Positions 1,851-35,726 of a stretch of DNA of 35,726 bases are shown in pieces. Position 1 is the stretch's first letter. The number at the start of each line of letters is the position of its first letter. The DNA is from a virus, in IMG/VR virus record IMGVR_UViG_3300050821_014794, positions 1-35,726 of that record. One strand, written 5' to 3'. A program made the position numbers and the translations under genes. The notes beneath the pieces are model-generated. The model was not told where the DNA came from. It was given only the letters and a program-made list of their open reading frames with translations, and searched no databases.

Positions 1851-2093
1851 CTAATACCAATGAAAACCATGGGCCATAATGGCAAACATGCCAGCAAACC
1901 CCCCAATCATAATGCTAAACAACCACCTTATATCGACTTTAATGCTTGATTCCATCTGATTATATCTTTCATCCAATTGATCAAACCGCTTCTCAAATCG
2001 AATCAAAGTAGTATTAATATTATTTATAGATTGTTCTAACAGAGCTAATCTGACTTCATCACTGTACATGTTTTTTATTTTTTCTGTAGACAC
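1851..2093 (-). CDS. Small coiled-coil/TM protein, XhlA- or holin-like (paralogue 1)
   Basis: 80 aa. A polar N-terminal half with regular heptads (residues about 10-52) is followed by one transmembrane segment (about 56-75) and a short HGFHWY end. It is related to the next gene: both contain an ALLEQS motif followed by a heptad region with RFE, and both end in a C-terminal TM helix with an aromatic tail. This layout resembles XhlA-type haemolysin/holin accessory proteins of phages. The phage lysozyme has no signal peptide, so a membrane pore is needed, and this cassette supplies the best candidates. The function is inferred. Confidence 0.65.
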   Translation of the reverse strand: MSTEKIKNMYSDEVRLALLEQSINNINTTLIRFEKRFDQLDERYNQMESSIKVDIRWLFSIMIGGFAGMFAIMAHGFHWY

Positions 2094-2107
2094 AACTACC
2101 TCCTAAA

Positions 2108-2341
2108 TTAAAACCATCCCAATGATTTAGCCAAAGCAGTAACTAAGGTACCAATCAGTGAGATATAAAGTACCGATATTGAACCGATGGTCCAGTGGAA
2201 ATGGCTATCAATCTTACTATCTAATTTCTCTAACTTTGTCTCAAACCGCTTCAATGTTTCAAGAATTCCTGTATTCGATTGTTCCAATAAAGCAATTCTT
2301 AATTGATCGTGAGTGTACATTTTTTCATCATCATTCTTCAT
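2108..2341 (-). CDS. Small coiled-coil/TM protein, XhlA- or holin-like (paralogue 2)
   Basis: 77 aa, same design as its downstream neighbour. A charged start (MKNDDEKMYTHDQL) and the shared ALLEQS motif lead into a heptad region with RFETKLEKLD, then a TM segment (about residues 51-71) and the end SLGWF. The two genes look like a tandem duplication that has diverged. It starts 7 bp after the stop of the 58-aa gene and 14 bp before the start of paralogue 1, so the cassette is one transcript. The ribosome site is weak, so translation may depend on coupling. Likely a membrane-associated lysis or exclusion factor; not proven. Confidence 0.65.
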   Translation of the reverse strand: MKNDDEKMYTHDQLRIALLEQSNTGILETLKRFETKLEKLDSKIDSHFHWTIGSISVLYISLIGTLVTALAKSLGWF

Positions 2342-2348
2342 TTAAATC

Positions 2349-2525
2349 TCAAGTTAATTTCAATGCATGCAAAAAAACAGGTATCAGCGCTACAGTAAAT
2401 ATTGCGCCACATGAGCCTATAACAAAATCAATCTTTCTATTAAGTTGCCTGTATTCTATTTCCCTCTCTCTTAATCGTAATTCATGATCAAGATATTTGT
2501 CTTTAGCTATCTCTTCTTCCGTCAT
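2349..2525 (-). CDS. 58-aa small membrane protein, first gene of minus-strand cassette
   Basis: Starts MTEEEIAKDKYLDHELRL and has a charged helical N-terminal half (rich in E, R and K). One hydrophobic segment follows (about residues 34-53, with FVIGSCGAIFTVALI), then a short tail. A GGGAG ribosome site lies about 9 bases upstream of the ATG, and a promoter with a perfect TATAAT box is further upstream. The topology matches the next two genes, although the sequence is not clearly related. A holin-type or other inner-membrane role is plausible. No family is recognised. Confidence 0.6.
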   Translation of the reverse strand: MTEEEIAKDKYLDHELRLREREIEYRQLNRKIDFVIGSCGAIFTVALIPVFLHALKLT

Positions 2526-2582: not shown

Positions 2583-2604
2583 GCATTTAAAAAAGGGAGA
2601 TTAA

Positions 2605-3078
2605 ATGAAGTGGTATTCAGTTAAAGATCATCAACCAATATTATCCTGCTGCTGCATACTTCTTGCAATTTATATGCAAAAGAGAGGGGAGATATATTTA
2701 ACTCTAGGTGAATGGGATAATGGATGGAAAGATTGGGAACATAAATTTGATATAGAGAAAGAACTTGTTGGTCACAAAGTTCTCTATTTTTGCTATCCAG
2801 ACCCAATTCCTAAAGCGTATGAAAGCTTGATGGAATCAAATAAAACAATCAATCCCGATGATAGTAACTCGGTAAAAGATACATTGATTAAAGATATTGG
2901 TTTCACTGTGCGAACGACTAATTGCTTAATTGCAGGAGGAATTGAAACATTGGATCAATTATTAGTTTTGTGCGCACATCAATTTCTATACATTCCAAAT
3001 TTAGGTAAAAAATCAATTAAAGAAATTACAGATTGGCTCAATTTATCAGGAATTGAGCATGGATGGAGATTAAAGTAA
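2605..3078 (+). CDS. DUF551-like/RNA polymerase alpha-CTD fusion protein
   Basis: 157 aa with a GGGAG ribosome site. Residues 1-75 resemble DUF551 proteins of phages: WYSVKDHQP at the start, Trp-rich EWDNGWKDW, then CYPDPIP. Residues about 94-157 match the C-terminal domain of the bacterial RNA polymerase alpha subunit, including TVRTTNCL and IPNLGKKSIKEI and the end GWRL. Against E. coli alpha, R103, N106, G134, K136 and S137 line up with R265, N268, G296, K298 and S299, all at the same offset of 162, so the helix-hairpin-helix DNA-contact surface is intact. In the host, this domain binds UP elements and activators. Here it could bind A/T-rich promoter DNA or compete for activators. Homology is strong by eye; the role is inference. 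Confidence 0.85.
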   Translation: MKWYSVKDHQPILSCCCILLAIYMQKRGEIYLTLGEWDNGWKDWEHKFDIEKELVGHKVLYFCYPDPIPKAYESLMESNKTINPDDSNSVKDTLIKDIGFTVRTTNCLIAGGIETLDQLLVLCAHQFLYIPNLGKKSIKEITDWLNLSGIEHGWRLK

Positions 3079-3110: not shown

Positions 3111-3188
3111 ATGAAGGGGTATAGCGTTAAGAGATACCAGCCGATTAATAATTCATGGCCAATAAAATTAAAAGGGTATTATGATTAA
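3111..3188 (+). pseudogene. 25-aa remnant of a DUF551-like N-terminus
   Basis: A short ORF with a good GAGGAAG ribosome site that begins MKGYSVKRYQPI, echoing MKWYSVKDHQPI at the start of the preceding gene. After that the similarity stops and the frame ends. It looks like the truncated remains of a duplicated DUF551-like gene. It could still be translated as a micro-protein. Terminator 3213-3248 follows. Confidence 0.45.
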
Positions 3189-3212: not shown

Positions 3213-3248
3213 AAGCCGAACGGGTGTCAGCCCATATGTCCGGCTTTT
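3213..3248 (+). terminator. Rho-independent terminator after the alpha-CTD gene
   Basis: AAGCCG pairs with CGGCTT (3241-3246), and the stem extends inward through one mismatch (AAC with GTC). An inner GGG/CCC hairpin sits in the loop, and TTTT closes the element at 3245-3248. It separates the alpha-CTD unit from the winged-helix gene. Confidence 0.7.
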
Positions 3249-3380: not shown

Positions 3381-3422
3381 TATGTGAATTCTTCCACGAA
3401 CAACACGGGACAAGTTTACCTC

Positions 3423-3803
3423 ATGGCTATTAAAAAATCAAAATCAATTAATTCTAGAGTTTTTTCTTTAGCATGCAATAAATTAAATCTAAAGCGAAGA
3501 GAGAAAATCATATTCTACAGATTACTGGGATTTCTTATAAGAAACGACAAGCCATTTCCTTACTCCATAAAATCATTATCTGCTATAACCGGATACTCTA
3601 GAAGTTCAATATTTGAATCAATAAATCTACTCGAAAATCTGAGAATTATTTCTCGTAGAGGACTCACCAATAACGTCAAATTTAGCAAGGGAAGCATGAT
3701 GACTAGAATGTGCTCACTAGTCCAGAAACGTATAAAAATTGAACTGGATAAAGATTTAACACTAGTCCAGAAACTGGATATAAGAAAACATCTCTTTCTT
3801 TAA
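3423..3803 (+). CDS. Winged-helix DNA-binding protein
   Basis: 126 aa from ATG 3423; a GTG at 3384 would add 13 residues. The middle holds a replication-initiator-like winged helix: RREKIIFYRLLGF, then SIKSLSAITGYSRSSIFESI as the recognition helix region, then LLENLRIISRRG as the wing. The C-terminus carries two short repeats, SLVQKRIKIELDKD and TLVQKLDI, encoded by near-identical DNA. The gene stands alone between a terminator and the tail operon, so it is probably an accessory regulator. The ribosome site is weak, and the hairpin at 3352-3380 may control it. No exact family is recognised. Confidence 0.6.
   Translation: MAIKKSKSINSRVFSLACNKLNLKRREKIIFYRLLGFLIRNDKPFPYSIKSLSAITGYSRSSIFESINLLENLRIISRRGLTNNVKFSKGSMMTRMCSLVQKRIKIELDKDLTLVQKLDIRKHLFL
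3715..3780. repeat. Short direct repeats in the 3' end of the winged-helix gene
   Basis: CACTAGTCCAGAAAC occurs at 3715-3729 and again at 3760-3774. AACTGGATA occurs at 3742-3750 and 3772-3780. Together they encode the repeated LVQK peptide. This could be a recent slippage duplication or a set of binding sites. Confidence 0.6.
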
Positions 3804-3947: not shown

Positions 3948-3977
3948 GTAAATAAAGAAACACAGGGAGTGTTTGAC

Positions 3978-5585
3978 ATGCCGCTAGGAGTACGCGGATT
4001 TAATCCTATATGGGTTGAATTTGATTTACAGGGACAACTATTTGACGATACGTTCTATCTGTTCGTCTTGCAAAATACTATCCCCTATACTCCATTACCC
4101 GTATACCACGATATCAACTTATCCGATCCCTGGACAAACCCAATCCAATTTCTAGCTAATGGTACTTTGCCAGTAGACATTTATTTCGTTCCAGATGTTG
4201 TATACCGATTAGAATTCAGACAAGGAAATACTCAAGCAGCGCCACTTGTTTATGAAGTAGACAACTACATGCCTACAGGAGGAGAATCGCCACCGATTGA
4301 CATGACTGAATTTTCAACGAGCAATCAAGTTACCAATCCCCAATTTGCTTTAGTGAACTTTAGTTCCCCATTAACAATCAGTGGAACCGATCCCGCTCCC
4401 ATTCAAATTGGACCAGGATGGTTTTTAAATCTAGGTGGAACTGGCTCTGTCACACTGAATCAAATAGCATTGAACAACAGCAACATGAACCCCTCAAATG
4501 CGCCCTATGCGCTGGAATTAAATTTAAGTGGATGGGATGCTGGGGAAGTGTATTTAAGCCAAAGATTCGAACAAAATGGCATGCTCTGGGCGAACAAAAC
4601 AGTATCTACTACAATAACGGCACAATTAGTCGGGGTATCGAATACAATCAGTGCTACGTTATTTGATTCTCAAGGGGCTACACTTGCTGAAGTTCTATCA
4701 CCTCAGATTATTGACGAATCATGGAATGAATATACTGGCTATGGGGTTTTACCGGCCACTACTAATTCAAACACACCTCCTAACGCCTATATAGAATATC
4801 GATTAATGCTCCCGAGCAATATTAATATTTATGTCACAAGCATTCAATTAATCGTACAAGATGAGCCTTTTACACCGGCTTTCGAGCAAGATTCGATTAA
4901 TCGCCAAATTGATCACACCTACAATACCGCATACCCTATTATGTCTGTAGGTGGGATCATCGACTTTGCGGGATTTGTAGTTCCAGCTCATTATTTACTG
5001 TGCGATGGCACAGCATACTCTAGAATCACGTATAACCTGCTTTATCAGGCCTTAACGATGACTTTGACGGTTACCCTTACTTCCACGTCAAATATGTTCA
5101 CCGTAAGCTCTGCGGCCTTATTACGCATTGGTATGTTCATAGAAGGAACAGGCATACCCGCCGCAACGACAATTTCTAATATTTCAGGTACCACGATTAC
5201 AATGTCAGCAGCTGCGACAGCCTCAGGAACAGTTCCAGTTCGATTCTTTGGTTATGCCAATGGAGATGGAAGTACTACCTTTAATGTCCCTAATTTACAA
5301 GATTTTGTGACGGCAGGCTTAGGCGGCTCTTTATTTGGAGCGACCTTAAATGGCGTTGGAGGAAGTGGAGGGGCTGCCACAGTGACCCTAACTGGGGCTA
5401 ATATGCCGAACACGGTGGGTGTTTGTGTGACCACTAATGGTGCGAATCAAACCTACCAATCTGGCTCGACCGGAAACGTGTTTGGCACCACATCAGGTCT
5501 TGGTAACTTTAATAAAGGTCTTGGAAATGCCGTATCCATCGTCCAGCAAACTGCTCTGATGATGAAATGCATTAGGTTTGAATAA
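3978..5585 (+). CDS. Tail-collar fibre protein
   Basis: 535 aa from ATG 3978. AGGGAG sits 8 nt before it, which rules out the GTG at 3969. The N-terminal part (about 1-110) is a beta-rich module (PLGVRGFNPIWVEFDLQG) that may attach the fibre to the particle. The middle is beta-rich and resembles a carbohydrate-binding fold. The C-terminal part is a phage Tail Collar domain: VGGIIDFAG, LLCDGTAYSRITYNLLYQ, then GDGSTTFNVPNLQ. That domain is split by about 64 residues (DNA about 5058-5250) related to an insert in the gp4-like adaptor. It heads the fibre operon and is probably part of the receptor-binding apparatus. Confidence 0.75.
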   Translation: MPLGVRGFNPIWVEFDLQGQLFDDTFYLFVLQNTIPYTPLPVYHDINLSDPWTNPIQFLANGTLPVDIYFVPDVVYRLEFRQGNTQAAPLVYEVDNYMPTGGESPPIDMTEFSTSNQVTNPQFALVNFSSPLTISGTDPAPIQIGPGWFLNLGGTGSVTLNQIALNNSNMNPSNAPYALELNLSGWDAGEVYLSQRFEQNGMLWANKTVSTTITAQLVGVSNTISATLFDSQGATLAEVLSPQIIDESWNEYTGYGVLPATTNSNTPPNAYIEYRLMLPSNINIYVTSIQLIVQDEPFTPAFEQDSINRQIDHTYNTAYPIMSVGGIIDFAGFVVPAHYLLCDGTAYSRITYNLLYQALTMTLTVTLTSTSNMFTVSSAALLRIGMFIEGTGIPAATTISNISGTTITMSAAATASGTVPVRFFGYANGDGSTTFNVPNLQDFVTAGLGGSLFGATLNGVGGSGGAATVTLTGANMPNTVGVCVTTNGANQTYQSGSTGNVFGTTSGLGNFNKGLGNAVSIVQQTALMMKCIRFE

Positions 5586-14986: not shown

Positions 14987-15298
14987 TCATTTCCAAGGGT
15001 TTTCTTCTTCAACCGCTTCAACTCTATCTTTAAGTTCTGGGTATTTACCGGTAATTGATTTTATTAAGAGTGTCATAGTTGCAGATAACTCTTCTTGTCT
15101 GTCAATTATGTCTTTCATGCATCCAATCAGCGTATTTTGATAACAGCCAACTTGGGTATAATTTTTAGCCAATTCACTTTTATACTTAGATAAAATAGTC
15201 AATTCTTCATGCAATTTTTTATCTATTTTTTCTGAATAATCCCAAAATATTTTCTGCAAATATTTTTTTTCATCATCTGTTAAATTATTTTTTATCAT
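14987..15298 (-). CDS. 103-aa helical hypothetical protein
   Basis: Start chosen at 15298, where ATG overlaps the TGA of the nuclease gene (ATGA). It is highly helical and charged, with heptads over most of its length (EKKYLQKIFWDYSEKIDKKL, MKDIIDRQEELSATM), and ends in an acidic VEAVEEENPWK tail. No catalytic motif or membrane segment is seen. It is coupled to the Cas4-like nuclease and may be its partner. The family is not recognised. Confidence 0.6.
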   Translation of the reverse strand: MIKNNLTDDEKKYLQKIFWDYSEKIDKKLHEELTILSKYKSELAKNYTQVGCYQNTLIGCMKDIIDRQEELSATMTLLIKSITGKYPELKDRVEAVEEENPWK

Positions 15299-15960
15299 GA
15301 ATGACACACCTTATTAAATTTACACATCTTACATAAATACCAACTCGGAGACCCATTAATTTTAGGAGGAGGAACAGCGGCTGACTCTATTAAACGCGCT
15401 TTTTCTTCTAGAGATTCATAAAATGCCTCATCAAAATGTACTTTCTCATCAGAAATGTTACTGTTATCTTTATTTAAAACGAAAATATAAGTCGTATATA
15501 TCCCGCTCATTCCCATATAAGACTGAATTTGAGCATAATATTGAGGGCTCCATTTCTTAAGACCATTTTTTACAAAAAGATTAAAATTAGAATCTTTTGC
15601 CGTTTTAATTTCTATAATAGCTATAGCATTCTTCATGGTTTGACCGCGACTTACCCAGACAGAATCCAAGTGCCCTTTAAATAAGGGTACATTTTTTGAT
15701 TGTAATTGCTCCCATTCTCTATCGATGGTAAGTCCAGTTTGTTCTATCCAGTCTAATATGAGTGATTCCAAACAGTTCCCAATTTCCCATGCTCTTCTCA
15801 TTTTCGGAGGAATAAGATCTGCATTTACACCCTTAAATTCATACCAAATCTGGCGAAGACAAGGTGAGCCTATATTGGATGCCCCTATATATCCCCTACC
15901 TTTGTCGTGAATGCCATATTGATGTTTTTCTATCCTATTACTTAATCCATTCTTACTCAT
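15295..15960 (-). CDS. Cas4/RecB-like PD-(D/E)XK exonuclease with Fe-S cluster
   Basis: 221 aa from the ATG at 15960; an upstream ATG at 16011 lacks a clear ribosome site. The nuclease motifs are GHLD (D99), IIEIKTAK (E117, K119) and QYYAQIQSYM (Q140). One Cys near the N-terminus (C34, in SPCLRQIWY) and three near the end (C210, C213, C219) are spaced like the 4Fe-4S ligands of Cas4 and AddB. In phages such enzymes process DNA ends for recombination. Here it follows genes for an SSB-like and a Sak4-like protein, so it is likely the exonuclease of a recombination system. No CRISPR array is present. Confidence 0.88.
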   Translation of the reverse strand: MSKNGLSNRIEKHQYGIHDKGRGYIGASNIGSPCLRQIWYEFKGVNADLIPPKMRRAWEIGNCLESLILDWIEQTGLTIDREWEQLQSKNVPLFKGHLDSVWVSRGQTMKNAIAIIEIKTAKDSNFNLFVKNGLKKWSPQYYAQIQSYMGMSGIYTTYIFVLNKDNSNISDEKVHFDEAFYESLEEKARLIESAAVPPPKINGSPSWYLCKMCKFNKVCHS

Positions 15961-20849: not shown

Positions 20850-20950
20850 TCACTGGCTATTGACCTATGGGTTGATGGTAGAGCGCGTCAGGAATCGAAG
20901 ATTTGGCACCTTTAAAAGGATTTTTACACTAACAAATGGATGTTGATATT

Positions 20951-21148
20951 ATGATTGGTACAGTTACATGGTTTTCGGATGAGAAGGGATATGGGTTTGT
21001 GCAAAGTGAGAAGAAAGATTATTTTGTGCATTACAAAGAAATTTCTGGAGAAGGGTTTAAGTCTTTAAAGCAGGGAGATAAAGTGATTTTTGAGCCCGCT
21101 TCTTCTCCCAAGGGATTAGTGGCTAAGAATCTTCGCAAAGATACGTAG
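20951..21148 (+). CDS. Cold-shock domain protein
   Basis: 65 aa from ATG 20951, chosen because the family begins MxGTVxWF; ATG 20936 has no well-placed ribosome site. RNP1 (KGYGFV, 12-17) and RNP2 (YFVHY, 24-28) are intact, and the length is normal for CspA-type proteins. It should bind single-stranded RNA or DNA and melt secondary structure. It ends 26 nt inside the opposite-strand gene at 21123. The gap 20850-20950 holds no other gene. Confidence 0.9.
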   Translation: MIGTVTWFSDEKGYGFVQSEKKDYFVHYKEISGEGFKSLKQGDKVIFEPASSPKGLVAKNLRKDT

Positions 21149-34157: not shown

Positions 34158-35270
34158 ATGGCCATTGTAAACATACCAGGTGTATTATCTCCTCTTGATT
34201 CCTTTGCTAAAGGTTTTGGGTTGACAGATAACCTTATGAAACAAATTCTTGAGCGAAAGTATTTGAGCCAGCAACAAAAGCAATTTGAACAAGAGCTTGC
34301 ACTAAAGAAACAGCAAGAAGCTCGTATGGGCGCTAATATGGGACTTAACAGAGCGATATTGCAGCAGCGTCTTAATATTCTGAAACAAAAATCCGATCCT
34401 AATTATGAATTAAATAGATTTAATCTTTTGTTTGGTGGTGGTCAATCAGGGAATCAAATGGATGGCGGACAATCAGGAACTGCTGCACCAACTCAAATGA
34501 GTCAAGAATATCCTGCATTAGATGAGATGTTTTCAGGAAGAGGAGCTTTTCCAATTCCAGAAGAAATGCCAAGAACTGAACCAGTGCAACAACGTCCTGC
34601 AATGGGTGGTGCGCAGGTCAATAATGCTCTGCTTGAAACATTACGTAACGATCCTGCTAAGCGAGCTTTATTTAAGCATATGTATAAGTTTGATCCTTTG
34701 GCACCTACTGCTCAAACTCCTGAAGAGAAGAAAGAACTCGCTATTGATCAAGCTTTATCTATTGATGAAGCCAAAGCTAATAGAAAGAAAATTGATGAGA
34801 TTGAAAAAACAGCACAAGCCTTAATTCCTTTTATTGTTAAAGCGAAAACCATTAAAGATATATTAAATAGAAATCCCAAACTTACTGGCCCATCTACTGC
34901 ATTAGCTGATATGTTAGGATTAAGCCGAGATACTGATGTGGGAACGTTCATATCAGCAGCACAGTCGCTGCAGGGAAAAATGGCCCATGAACTTGGTTCA
35001 AGGGGAGGATATGGATTGGCGACACTTGTCGAGAAGGGGAAGCCAAACATTGGAAAGTCTAATGAATTCAATGTGGGTGTTACTGAGGAAATACTGGAAA
35101 GCATGCATGATTCTTTTCTTCAAATGAAGCAAGAATATGAACGATTAAGCAATAAACCTTTTCCTTATAATTTTGAACAATATTTTGAAAAAGCGACAGG
35201 AACTGAAAAAGCAAAGAGAGCTAATAAAAAACGAGTAAAATTTAATCTAGTTACCGGGAGGCTCGAATAA
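34158..35270 (+). CDS. Ejection-type protein, P22 gp20 position
   Basis: 370 aa, 1 nt after the previous stop. The N-terminal region is Gln/Lys-rich helical (ILERKYLSQQQKQFEQELAL). A low-complexity Gly/Gln/Pro linker covers about 95-150. The C-terminal half is helical (AKTIKDILNRNPKLTGPSTA, SAAQSLQGKMAHELGSRGGY). It holds the place of P22 gp20 (471 aa). The stop overlaps the next start (TAATG). A role in DNA ejection is inferred; no enzymatic motif is seen. Confidence 0.65.
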   Translation: MAIVNIPGVLSPLDSFAKGFGLTDNLMKQILERKYLSQQQKQFEQELALKKQQEARMGANMGLNRAILQQRLNILKQKSDPNYELNRFNLLFGGGQSGNQMDGGQSGTAAPTQMSQEYPALDEMFSGRGAFPIPEEMPRTEPVQQRPAMGGAQVNNALLETLRNDPAKRALFKHMYKFDPLAPTAQTPEEKKELAIDQALSIDEAKANRKKIDEIEKTAQALIPFIVKAKTIKDILNRNPKLTGPSTALADMLGLSRDTDVGTFISAAQSLQGKMAHELGSRGGYGLATLVEKGKPNIGKSNEFNVGVTEEILESMHDSFLQMKQEYERLSNKPFPYNFEQYFEKATGTEKAKRANKKRVKFNLVTGRLE

Positions 35271-35726
35271 TGGAAATTGAATTACCTAATGGCCAAATCG
35301 CCGAATTTCCTGATGATATGCCTCATGAACAAATAGAATCTGTCTTAAAACGTCATTTTTCACCAAAAATTGCGTCTCAAAACGATCAATCAGAGGCATT
35401 TCAAAATATCAAGCAACGTTATCCTGGAATGCCTGAATTCATGATTAATGCATTAATGCCTGCTGCTGTTACCATGGCAGAAACTCCAGAAGATGTCACA
35501 CCTGGGACACCTCATGGAGCTATGTGGCGAGCAGCTGCTAGAGCCCCGTTGGAAGCGGCTAATAATCTTGCATCATTAATCGGACTTAATAATAATGAGA
35601 ATGCCAAATGGCCTTCATTAATTGCTGAAAGTGAATCTGATAAATCGCATCCTTTTCTACAATTATTAGGAAGTGCCGCAGGAGCTGCCCCTTTAGCAGC
35701 TGGTGGAATTAACGCATTACGAGCCG
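35270..35726 (+). CDS. Ejection-type virion protein, N-terminal part (continues at base 2)
   Basis: Start of the 714-aa protein that continues at base 2 of the window. The first 30 residues (MEIELPNGQIAEFPDDMP, HEQIESVLKRHF) are a small module seen at the N-terminus of many phage virion proteins, including some ejection proteins and transglycosylases. The following region is Ala/Pro-rich with a helical, hydrophobic stretch (FLQLLGSAAGAAPLAAGGI). It occupies the position of P22 gp16. The last 98 bases repeat the start of the window. Confidence 0.75.
   Translation, partial: MEIELPNGQIAEFPDDMPHEQIESVLKRHFSPKIASQNDQSEAFQNIKQRYPGMPEFMINALMPAAVTMAETPEDVTPGTPHGAMWRAAARAPLEAANNLASLIGLNNNENAKWPSLIAESESDKSHPFLQLLGSAAGAAPLAAGGINALRA
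35629..35726. repeat. Terminal direct repeat, right copy (circular contig overlap)
   Basis: Identical to bases 1-98. See the left copy. The unique circle ends at 35628. Confidence 0.95.

Follow-up and report, generated by a model that had tools for sequence, protein, structure and literature searches.

The window analysed here is the whole of a 35,726-nucleotide viral DNA (IMG/VR record IMGVR_UViG_3300050821_014794). It is the complete genome of a P22-like podovirus: portal and coat are P22-like, and the sequence can be taken as complete because bases 1-98 recur at 35629-35726 as a 98-bp direct terminal repeat and an ejection-protein ORF that starts at 35270 crosses the junction and reaches 1786. 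The genome is circularly permuted and ~35.6 kb long, though the record is classed as lacking end repeats. By terminase, the nearest named phages are Pseudoalteromonas H6/1 (44%) and Vibrio 1.182.O (41%). Elsewhere in the window, an ORF at 20936-21148 resembles a cold-shock protein (GTVTWFSDEKGYGFVQSEKKDYFVHY). The gene of interest encodes P0001, a two-domain protein; it follows the last ejection-protein gene and precedes the tail-fibre gene, in the late-strand region and on the same strand as the tail operon. The island and its parts are as follows:

1851..2525, minus strand: three small genes (1851-2093, 2108-2341 and 2349-2525) whose products look membrane-anchored and XhlA-like
2593..2599, plus strand: AAGGGAG, ribosome-binding site of P0001 (direct reading of the sequence)
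2605..3078, plus strand: P0001, two-domain phage protein, DUF551-like + alpha-CTD (ORF and translation; identical copy on contig L002)
2605..2829, plus strand: DUF551-like domain, P0001 residues 1-75, mostly beta, MKWYSVK...FCYPDPIP (unfused relatives, Foldseek, hhalign)
2830..2862, plus strand: linker, P0001 residues 76-86 (lower pLDDT over 71-90; near the point where the closest unfused relatives stop)
2863..3075, plus strand: RNA polymerase alpha-CTD, P0001 residues 87-157 (PF03118, PDB sequence match, Foldseek)
3111..3188, plus strand: 25-codon remnant MKGYSVKRYQPINNSW... (translation; resembles the MKWYSVKKYKP starts of the DUF551-like family)
3213..3246, plus strand: possible, weak intrinsic terminator after P0001 (hairpin of -14 kcal/mol)
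3384..3803, plus strand: helix-turn-helix (HTH) protein, neighbour of P0001 (HTH_36/MarR_2 E ~8e-4, below cut-offs)
3969..5585, plus strand: tail-fibre/collar protein, right edge of the island (Pfam Collar, E = 2.1e-9)

The P0001 ORF is open, starts with ATG and encodes 157 residues. A letter-for-letter identical ORF is present on a separate contig (L002, from metagenome 3300021170), and an assembly error in a single contig therefore cannot account for the fusion; the exact fusion was found only in this one phage, on these two identical contigs, and PHROGs assigns P0001 to no family. An AlphaFold2 model computed from a 32-row alignment has a mean pLDDT of 85, which drops to 70 and then 61 over residues 71-90, and a pTM of 0.52, which makes the relative placement of the two domains uncertain.

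The C-terminal part of P0001 is a true RNA polymerase alpha-CTD, as confirmed by profile HMM, gapless alignment and the AlphaFold model. The PF03118 (RNA_pol_A_CTD) profile matches residues 87-145 over most of its length (model positions 7-65 of 67; E = 2.3e-13) with 50.1 bits, more than twice the curated cut-off of 23.8 bits, and NCBIfam rpoA models match at residues 68-154 only. The initial annotation had described an alignment to E. coli alpha-CTD that is gapless between the two key motifs, and this is borne out: residues 95-156 align gaplessly with the E. coli domain in PDB sequences (E ~2e-7). In the model, residues 91-150 (pLDDT block means 84-97) adopt the alpha-CTD fold; Foldseek matches the C-terminal half to isolated alpha-CTD chains in the PDB at TMt 0.71-0.88, the best being 8y5t_A2 (TMt 0.88, 1.8 A) and 7vpd_S (0.86, 0.9 A), and the matches include 3n97 and 9zum, alpha-CTDs solved with UP or A/T-rich DNA. 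E-values and structure together rule out a chance similarity. Another helix-hairpin-helix (HhH) family, the placement that according to the initial annotation would have overturned its reading, is likewise ruled out, since HHH_5 and DUF3701 stay below cut-off (E>0.1) while PF03118 does not. Could the gene be a piece of host rpoA, either as contamination or as a recent fragment? This too is ruled out: the alpha-NTD, which serves dimerisation and assembly in RpoA, is missing and residues 1-75 are DUF551-like instead; the neighbours are phage genes; and identity to enterobacterial (gammaproteobacterial) alpha is only 41%, so the CTD is not a fresh rpoA fragment.

Compared with residues 249-329 of E. 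coli RpoA, the phage domain is alike in fold and in the residues that contact DNA, but sits on a different N-terminal domain and has altered protein-contact surfaces. R103, N106, C107, G134, K136, S137 and E140 correspond to R265, N268, C269, G296, K298, S299 and E302, all of them kept (the five of these pairs given in the initial annotation, all but C107 and E140, are right), and D259 and R317 are also retained. Changes are found at E261 (G99), K271 (I109), K291 (Tyr) and T285/E286/V287/E288 (C123/A124/H125/Q126). Judged from the alignment, the DNA face, or 265 determinant, is preserved except for K271, whereas the surfaces that meet sigma and CRP in E. coli (the 261 and 287 determinants, which are not needed for Pfam membership) are lost. 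The domain had been called “intact”; the word holds for the DNA face but must be limited to it, because Gly replaces E261 and the 285-288 surface has been lost. The computed net charge at pH 7 is about +0.6, compared with -3.1 for the E. coli domain.

The N-terminal domain had been named DUF551-like by eye, and the name is a fair one, although Pfam membership cannot be claimed: DUF551 (PF04448) gives no match to P0001 at E<=10. The relation emerges from family and structure comparisons. One of 12 members of the P0001 N-domain family matches DUF551 (E = 0.014), Foldseek against viral models returns many DUF551-named matches (TMt 0.61-0.72, the best of them with an rmsd of 1.9 A), and hhalign relates the family to DUF551 proteins of sister phages over the first 25 columns only (prob 61, P = 8e-5). 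With DUF551 proper, as in YfdS and at the C-terminus of Ea22 variant V2 of Stx phages (PMC10834534), the P0001 domain shares the fold and a WxSVK...H(W/F)..P pattern; it differs in falling below the Pfam model and in forming a separate “MKWYSVK..FCxPDPI” branch. DUF551 itself behaves as a portable domain, reported for example in helix-turn-helix and sigma-type proteins (PMC10834534).

The N-terminal domain is small and of a kind common in phages, and its relatives occur unfused in other phages. The closest are five proteins (L197-L201) of 79-83 aa that are 50-77% identical, and one of them, L197, stops about where the P0001 linker starts; more distant ones are 66-73 aa long. All begin with MKW(Y/L)S and carry FC.PDP(I/V) near the end. 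Since the domain exists on its own elsewhere, P0001 can be described as a standalone phage protein to which an alpha-CTD was added, and HMM, structure and these unfused relatives together confirm the fusion that the initial annotation had reported. A scan of a genome collection gave a single match, an unfused N-domain (L088) whose phage-like contig had been assigned to a Planctomycetota MAG. On the phage contig that carries L200, a CsrA-like ORF (MLILTRKENQSIIINKNIKITFLGIG; 3521-3802) adjoins the unfused copy. Just downstream of P0001 in the window, the remnant at 3111-3188 resembles the beginning of a second DUF551-like gene that has decayed.

Comparison with sister phages (terminase ~77-84% identical) supports the placement of P0001 in a variable accessory slot just upstream of the tail operon, as had been proposed. 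At this point the sisters have a tight junction, small orphans, a gene of XhlA type or the HTH gene of the window, whose homologue adjoins the fibre gene in sister G009. The P0001 gene is missing from most sisters, including ones that share the fibre gene. In the window, the island has a GC content of 33.6%, compared with 38.4% for the whole genome, and the XhlA match of 1851-2093 (E = 0.0014, Pfam) is below cut-off. The possible terminator is weak: the hairpin at 3213-3246 has a z of -2.07 with 7/200 shuffles as good, and a pattern scan for such elements found 2 where 1.1 are expected; sigma70-type promoters around P0001 are not in excess in a promoter scan (8 found vs 10.6 expected), which leaves the idea of a late promoter here unsupported. 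Neither the larger ORFs of the window nor the Pfam scans made of it revealed a phage RNA polymerase.

PF03118 scores above cut-off in only two (G010 and G023) of 47 related phage records, a set that includes many fragments. In both, the alpha-CTD is joined to other N-terminal parts in a minus-strand region near the helicase gene, and in G023 the two genes adjoin. The partner in G010 has an unfused homologue in the window, encoded at 14987-15307 (40% over 70 aa). Sub-cut-off PF03118 matches in two further pairs of records (G026/G027 and G056/G057) were judged to be chance or divergent HhH.

Beyond this phage group, alpha-CTDs free of the rest of RpoA are common in uncultured phages on many partners, so P0001 is not an isolated curiosity. 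Scans of IMG/VR yielded 206 and 209 relatives, in sets that overlap, and over 200 contigs encode one. None of the 109 distinct ORFs that were read, which comprise the loci kept and loci reached by other searches, contains an rpoA N-terminal motif or a full rpoA, and their non-CTD parts fall into ~46 sequence families. When clustered at 60% identity (58 clusters), the alpha-CTD is C-terminal in 37 and internal or N-terminal in 21. R265 and G296 are present in 100% of the clusters, S299 in 98%, E302 in 97%, K298 in 88%, C269 in 78% and N268 in 74%, while the sigma (257-261) and activator (285-288, 317) surfaces vary; these figures are to be read with the retrieval in mind, because the NLG(K/R)KS..E columns were in the retrieval patterns and their conservation is partly built in, NCL (N268, C269) was in the patterns for some loci only, which confines the bias to those, and R265 was in none, being the only column fully free of it. 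Within a single phage family of 19 members, purifying selection is stronger on the CTD (median dN/dS 0.126) than on the part joined to it (0.213).

Phage alpha-CTD proteins are already named in databases; the pairing of alpha-CTD with a DUF551-like domain is a new variant. Like P0001, the named examples are small phage proteins with an alpha-CTD; those examined have other partner regions, and they are named by annotation only, the literature searched yielding annotations but no functional study. In Ruegeria phage V16, an alpha-CTD is part of gp23, whose annotation is pyrophosphatase. In SPO1-type phages, the terminal repeat holds host-takeover genes. The terminal repeat of Bacillus phage Goe8 (Herelleviridae, MN043729.1) includes a gene for a free alpha-CTD (c00050/c02430, at 1959-2591 and 156106-156738). 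ORF 40 of vB_EliS-L02 is another case in a named phage (PMC9127768). In the uncultured set, L014 joins a sigma-70 region 4 HTH to an alpha-CTD (Pfam E = 1.1e-8), and L063, L072, L263, L288, L290 and L297, tied to L014 by sequence, join HTH parts to one. By eye, L085 has an alpha-CTD followed by DUF551-like-looking sequence, the reverse of the order in P0001, and Pfam did not confirm a DUF551 there.

What could a phage do with an alpha-CTD of its own? This part of RNA polymerase recognises UP elements and is where activators make contact; phages cut or modify it: T4 Alt and ModA act on alpha-CTD through ADP-ribosylation. Rac of phage LUZ19 severs it and lowers transcription (PMC7552054). If its function is as proposed below, P0001 would share a target with these factors, the alpha-CTD step of transcription, but would work as a phage copy of the domain and not by cutting or modifying the host's. 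While the reading of the domains is supported, the function attached to them is a proposal, which leaves the interpretation as a whole partly supported. From domain content and location, P0001 may be a moron-borne, two-domain DNA-binding regulator that alters promoter use by host RNA polymerase during infection, a reading that in our estimate falls a little short of probable. Using the conserved 265 determinant, its alpha-CTD would dock in the minor groove where DNA is A/T-rich, presumably at UP-element-type sites upstream of -35; the DUF551-like domain would be the cargo or the partner-binding part carried there; and P0001 could then either compete for UP elements with the alpha-CTD of the host or add a tethered contact at phage promoters, in both cases shifting the promoter choice of host RNA polymerase. 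Competition is plausible because loss of alpha-CTD lowers host transcription, as Rac demonstrates (PMC7552054), and the proposed functions, to direct, starve or redirect host transcription, would fit both the kept DNA face and the P22-like nature of a phage for which no polymerase of its own was seen. We infer DNA binding, promoter targeting and an effect on transcription in P0001 with two points counting against them: two basic side chains are lost (K271 to I and K291 to Y), and alpha-CTDs elsewhere also adjoin domains with no obvious role in transcription. Moreover, isolated alpha-CTD binds DNA weakly, so P0001 may do little unless it dimerises or is tethered.

Several other accounts compete with a regulator of promoter use. 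A free alpha-CTD might serve mainly as a decoy that titrates host activators or occupies UP elements, depriving the promoters of rRNA and other strongly transcribed host genes of help from alpha-CTD; the host would be shut off as by Rac cleavage or T4 ADP-ribosylation, only through competition. That phages are known to attack alpha-CTD, as LUZ19 Rac does (PMC7552054), and that Goe8 holds a free copy in its terminal repeat speak for such a role; but the CRP-type activator surface is altered in P0001 (T285C, E286A, V287H, E288Q) and varies across phages, the gene is in the late-strand region away from early genes, and stoichiometric titration requires high expression, and we consider such starvation of the host unlikely. 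A positive factor, in which alpha-CTD and partner bridge phage promoter DNA to host RNA polymerase or sigma region 4 and boost late genes, would suit a gene co-directional with the tail operon and just upstream of it, as well as L014 and its relatives with their sigma-region-4-type HTH; yet P0001 has Gly in place of E261, the residue at the centre of the sigma contact, promoters around the gene are no more frequent than expected, and the gene is missing from sisters that share the fibre gene. This makes late-gene activation distinctly doubtful, more so than starvation.

The domain might also have nothing to do with transcription and simply hold accessory proteins for nuclease, recombination or counter-defence activities on DNA, as a generic HhH module would. 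The diversity of partners (~46 families, with the CTD at either end), the pyrophosphatase of V16, the helicase gene beside the G023 alpha-CTD and the portability described for DUF551 (PMC10834534) are all compatible with such tethering. A generic HhH would not require R265 in every cluster. The alpha-CTD, moreover, is a particular kind of HhH with a preference for A/T-rich DNA upstream of promoters and with contacts to RNA polymerase partners, which argues against a purely generic tether; we rate this as quite unlikely, between starvation and late-gene activation. Finally, the chance joining of a captured piece of rpoA, now drifting as non-functional cargo, would explain why the exact fusion is confined to one phage and the gene is absent from most sisters, but not why key residues are kept in a domain that has diverged to 41% identity, why fusions recur, or why the CTD is under purifying selection in another phage family; we regard drift as improbable, the least credible of the four.

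Returning to P0001 as a regulator of promoter use, the wider pattern suits a portable minor-groove module, because the DNA face is kept while other surfaces drift, partners are many and fusion is repeated. On dozens of unrelated phage proteins, the borrowed alpha-CTD probably steers or blocks host transcription. It is possible, if more tentative than the regulatory role of P0001 itself, that phages have made alpha-CTD a portable adaptor, joined time and again to small accessory proteins, and with it an unrecognised class of regulators acting at UP-element DNA, of which P0001 would be the DUF551-like member. If widespread, phage-owned alpha-CTDs on dozens of partners would represent a different way of handling the alpha-CTD step, and these natural fusions would be a ready-made set for studying how a tethered alpha-CTD acts.

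The matches in INPHARED are rpoA-like, and six unannotated “phage” records (MT837142, MT837602, MT839982, MT839537, MT837710 and OR851339) hold whole or partial rpoA ORFs and are probably bacterial contamination. In the Planctomycetota MAG G048 (contig C64; L175/L176), a 498-aa bacterial protein ends in two tandem alpha-CTD-type domains.
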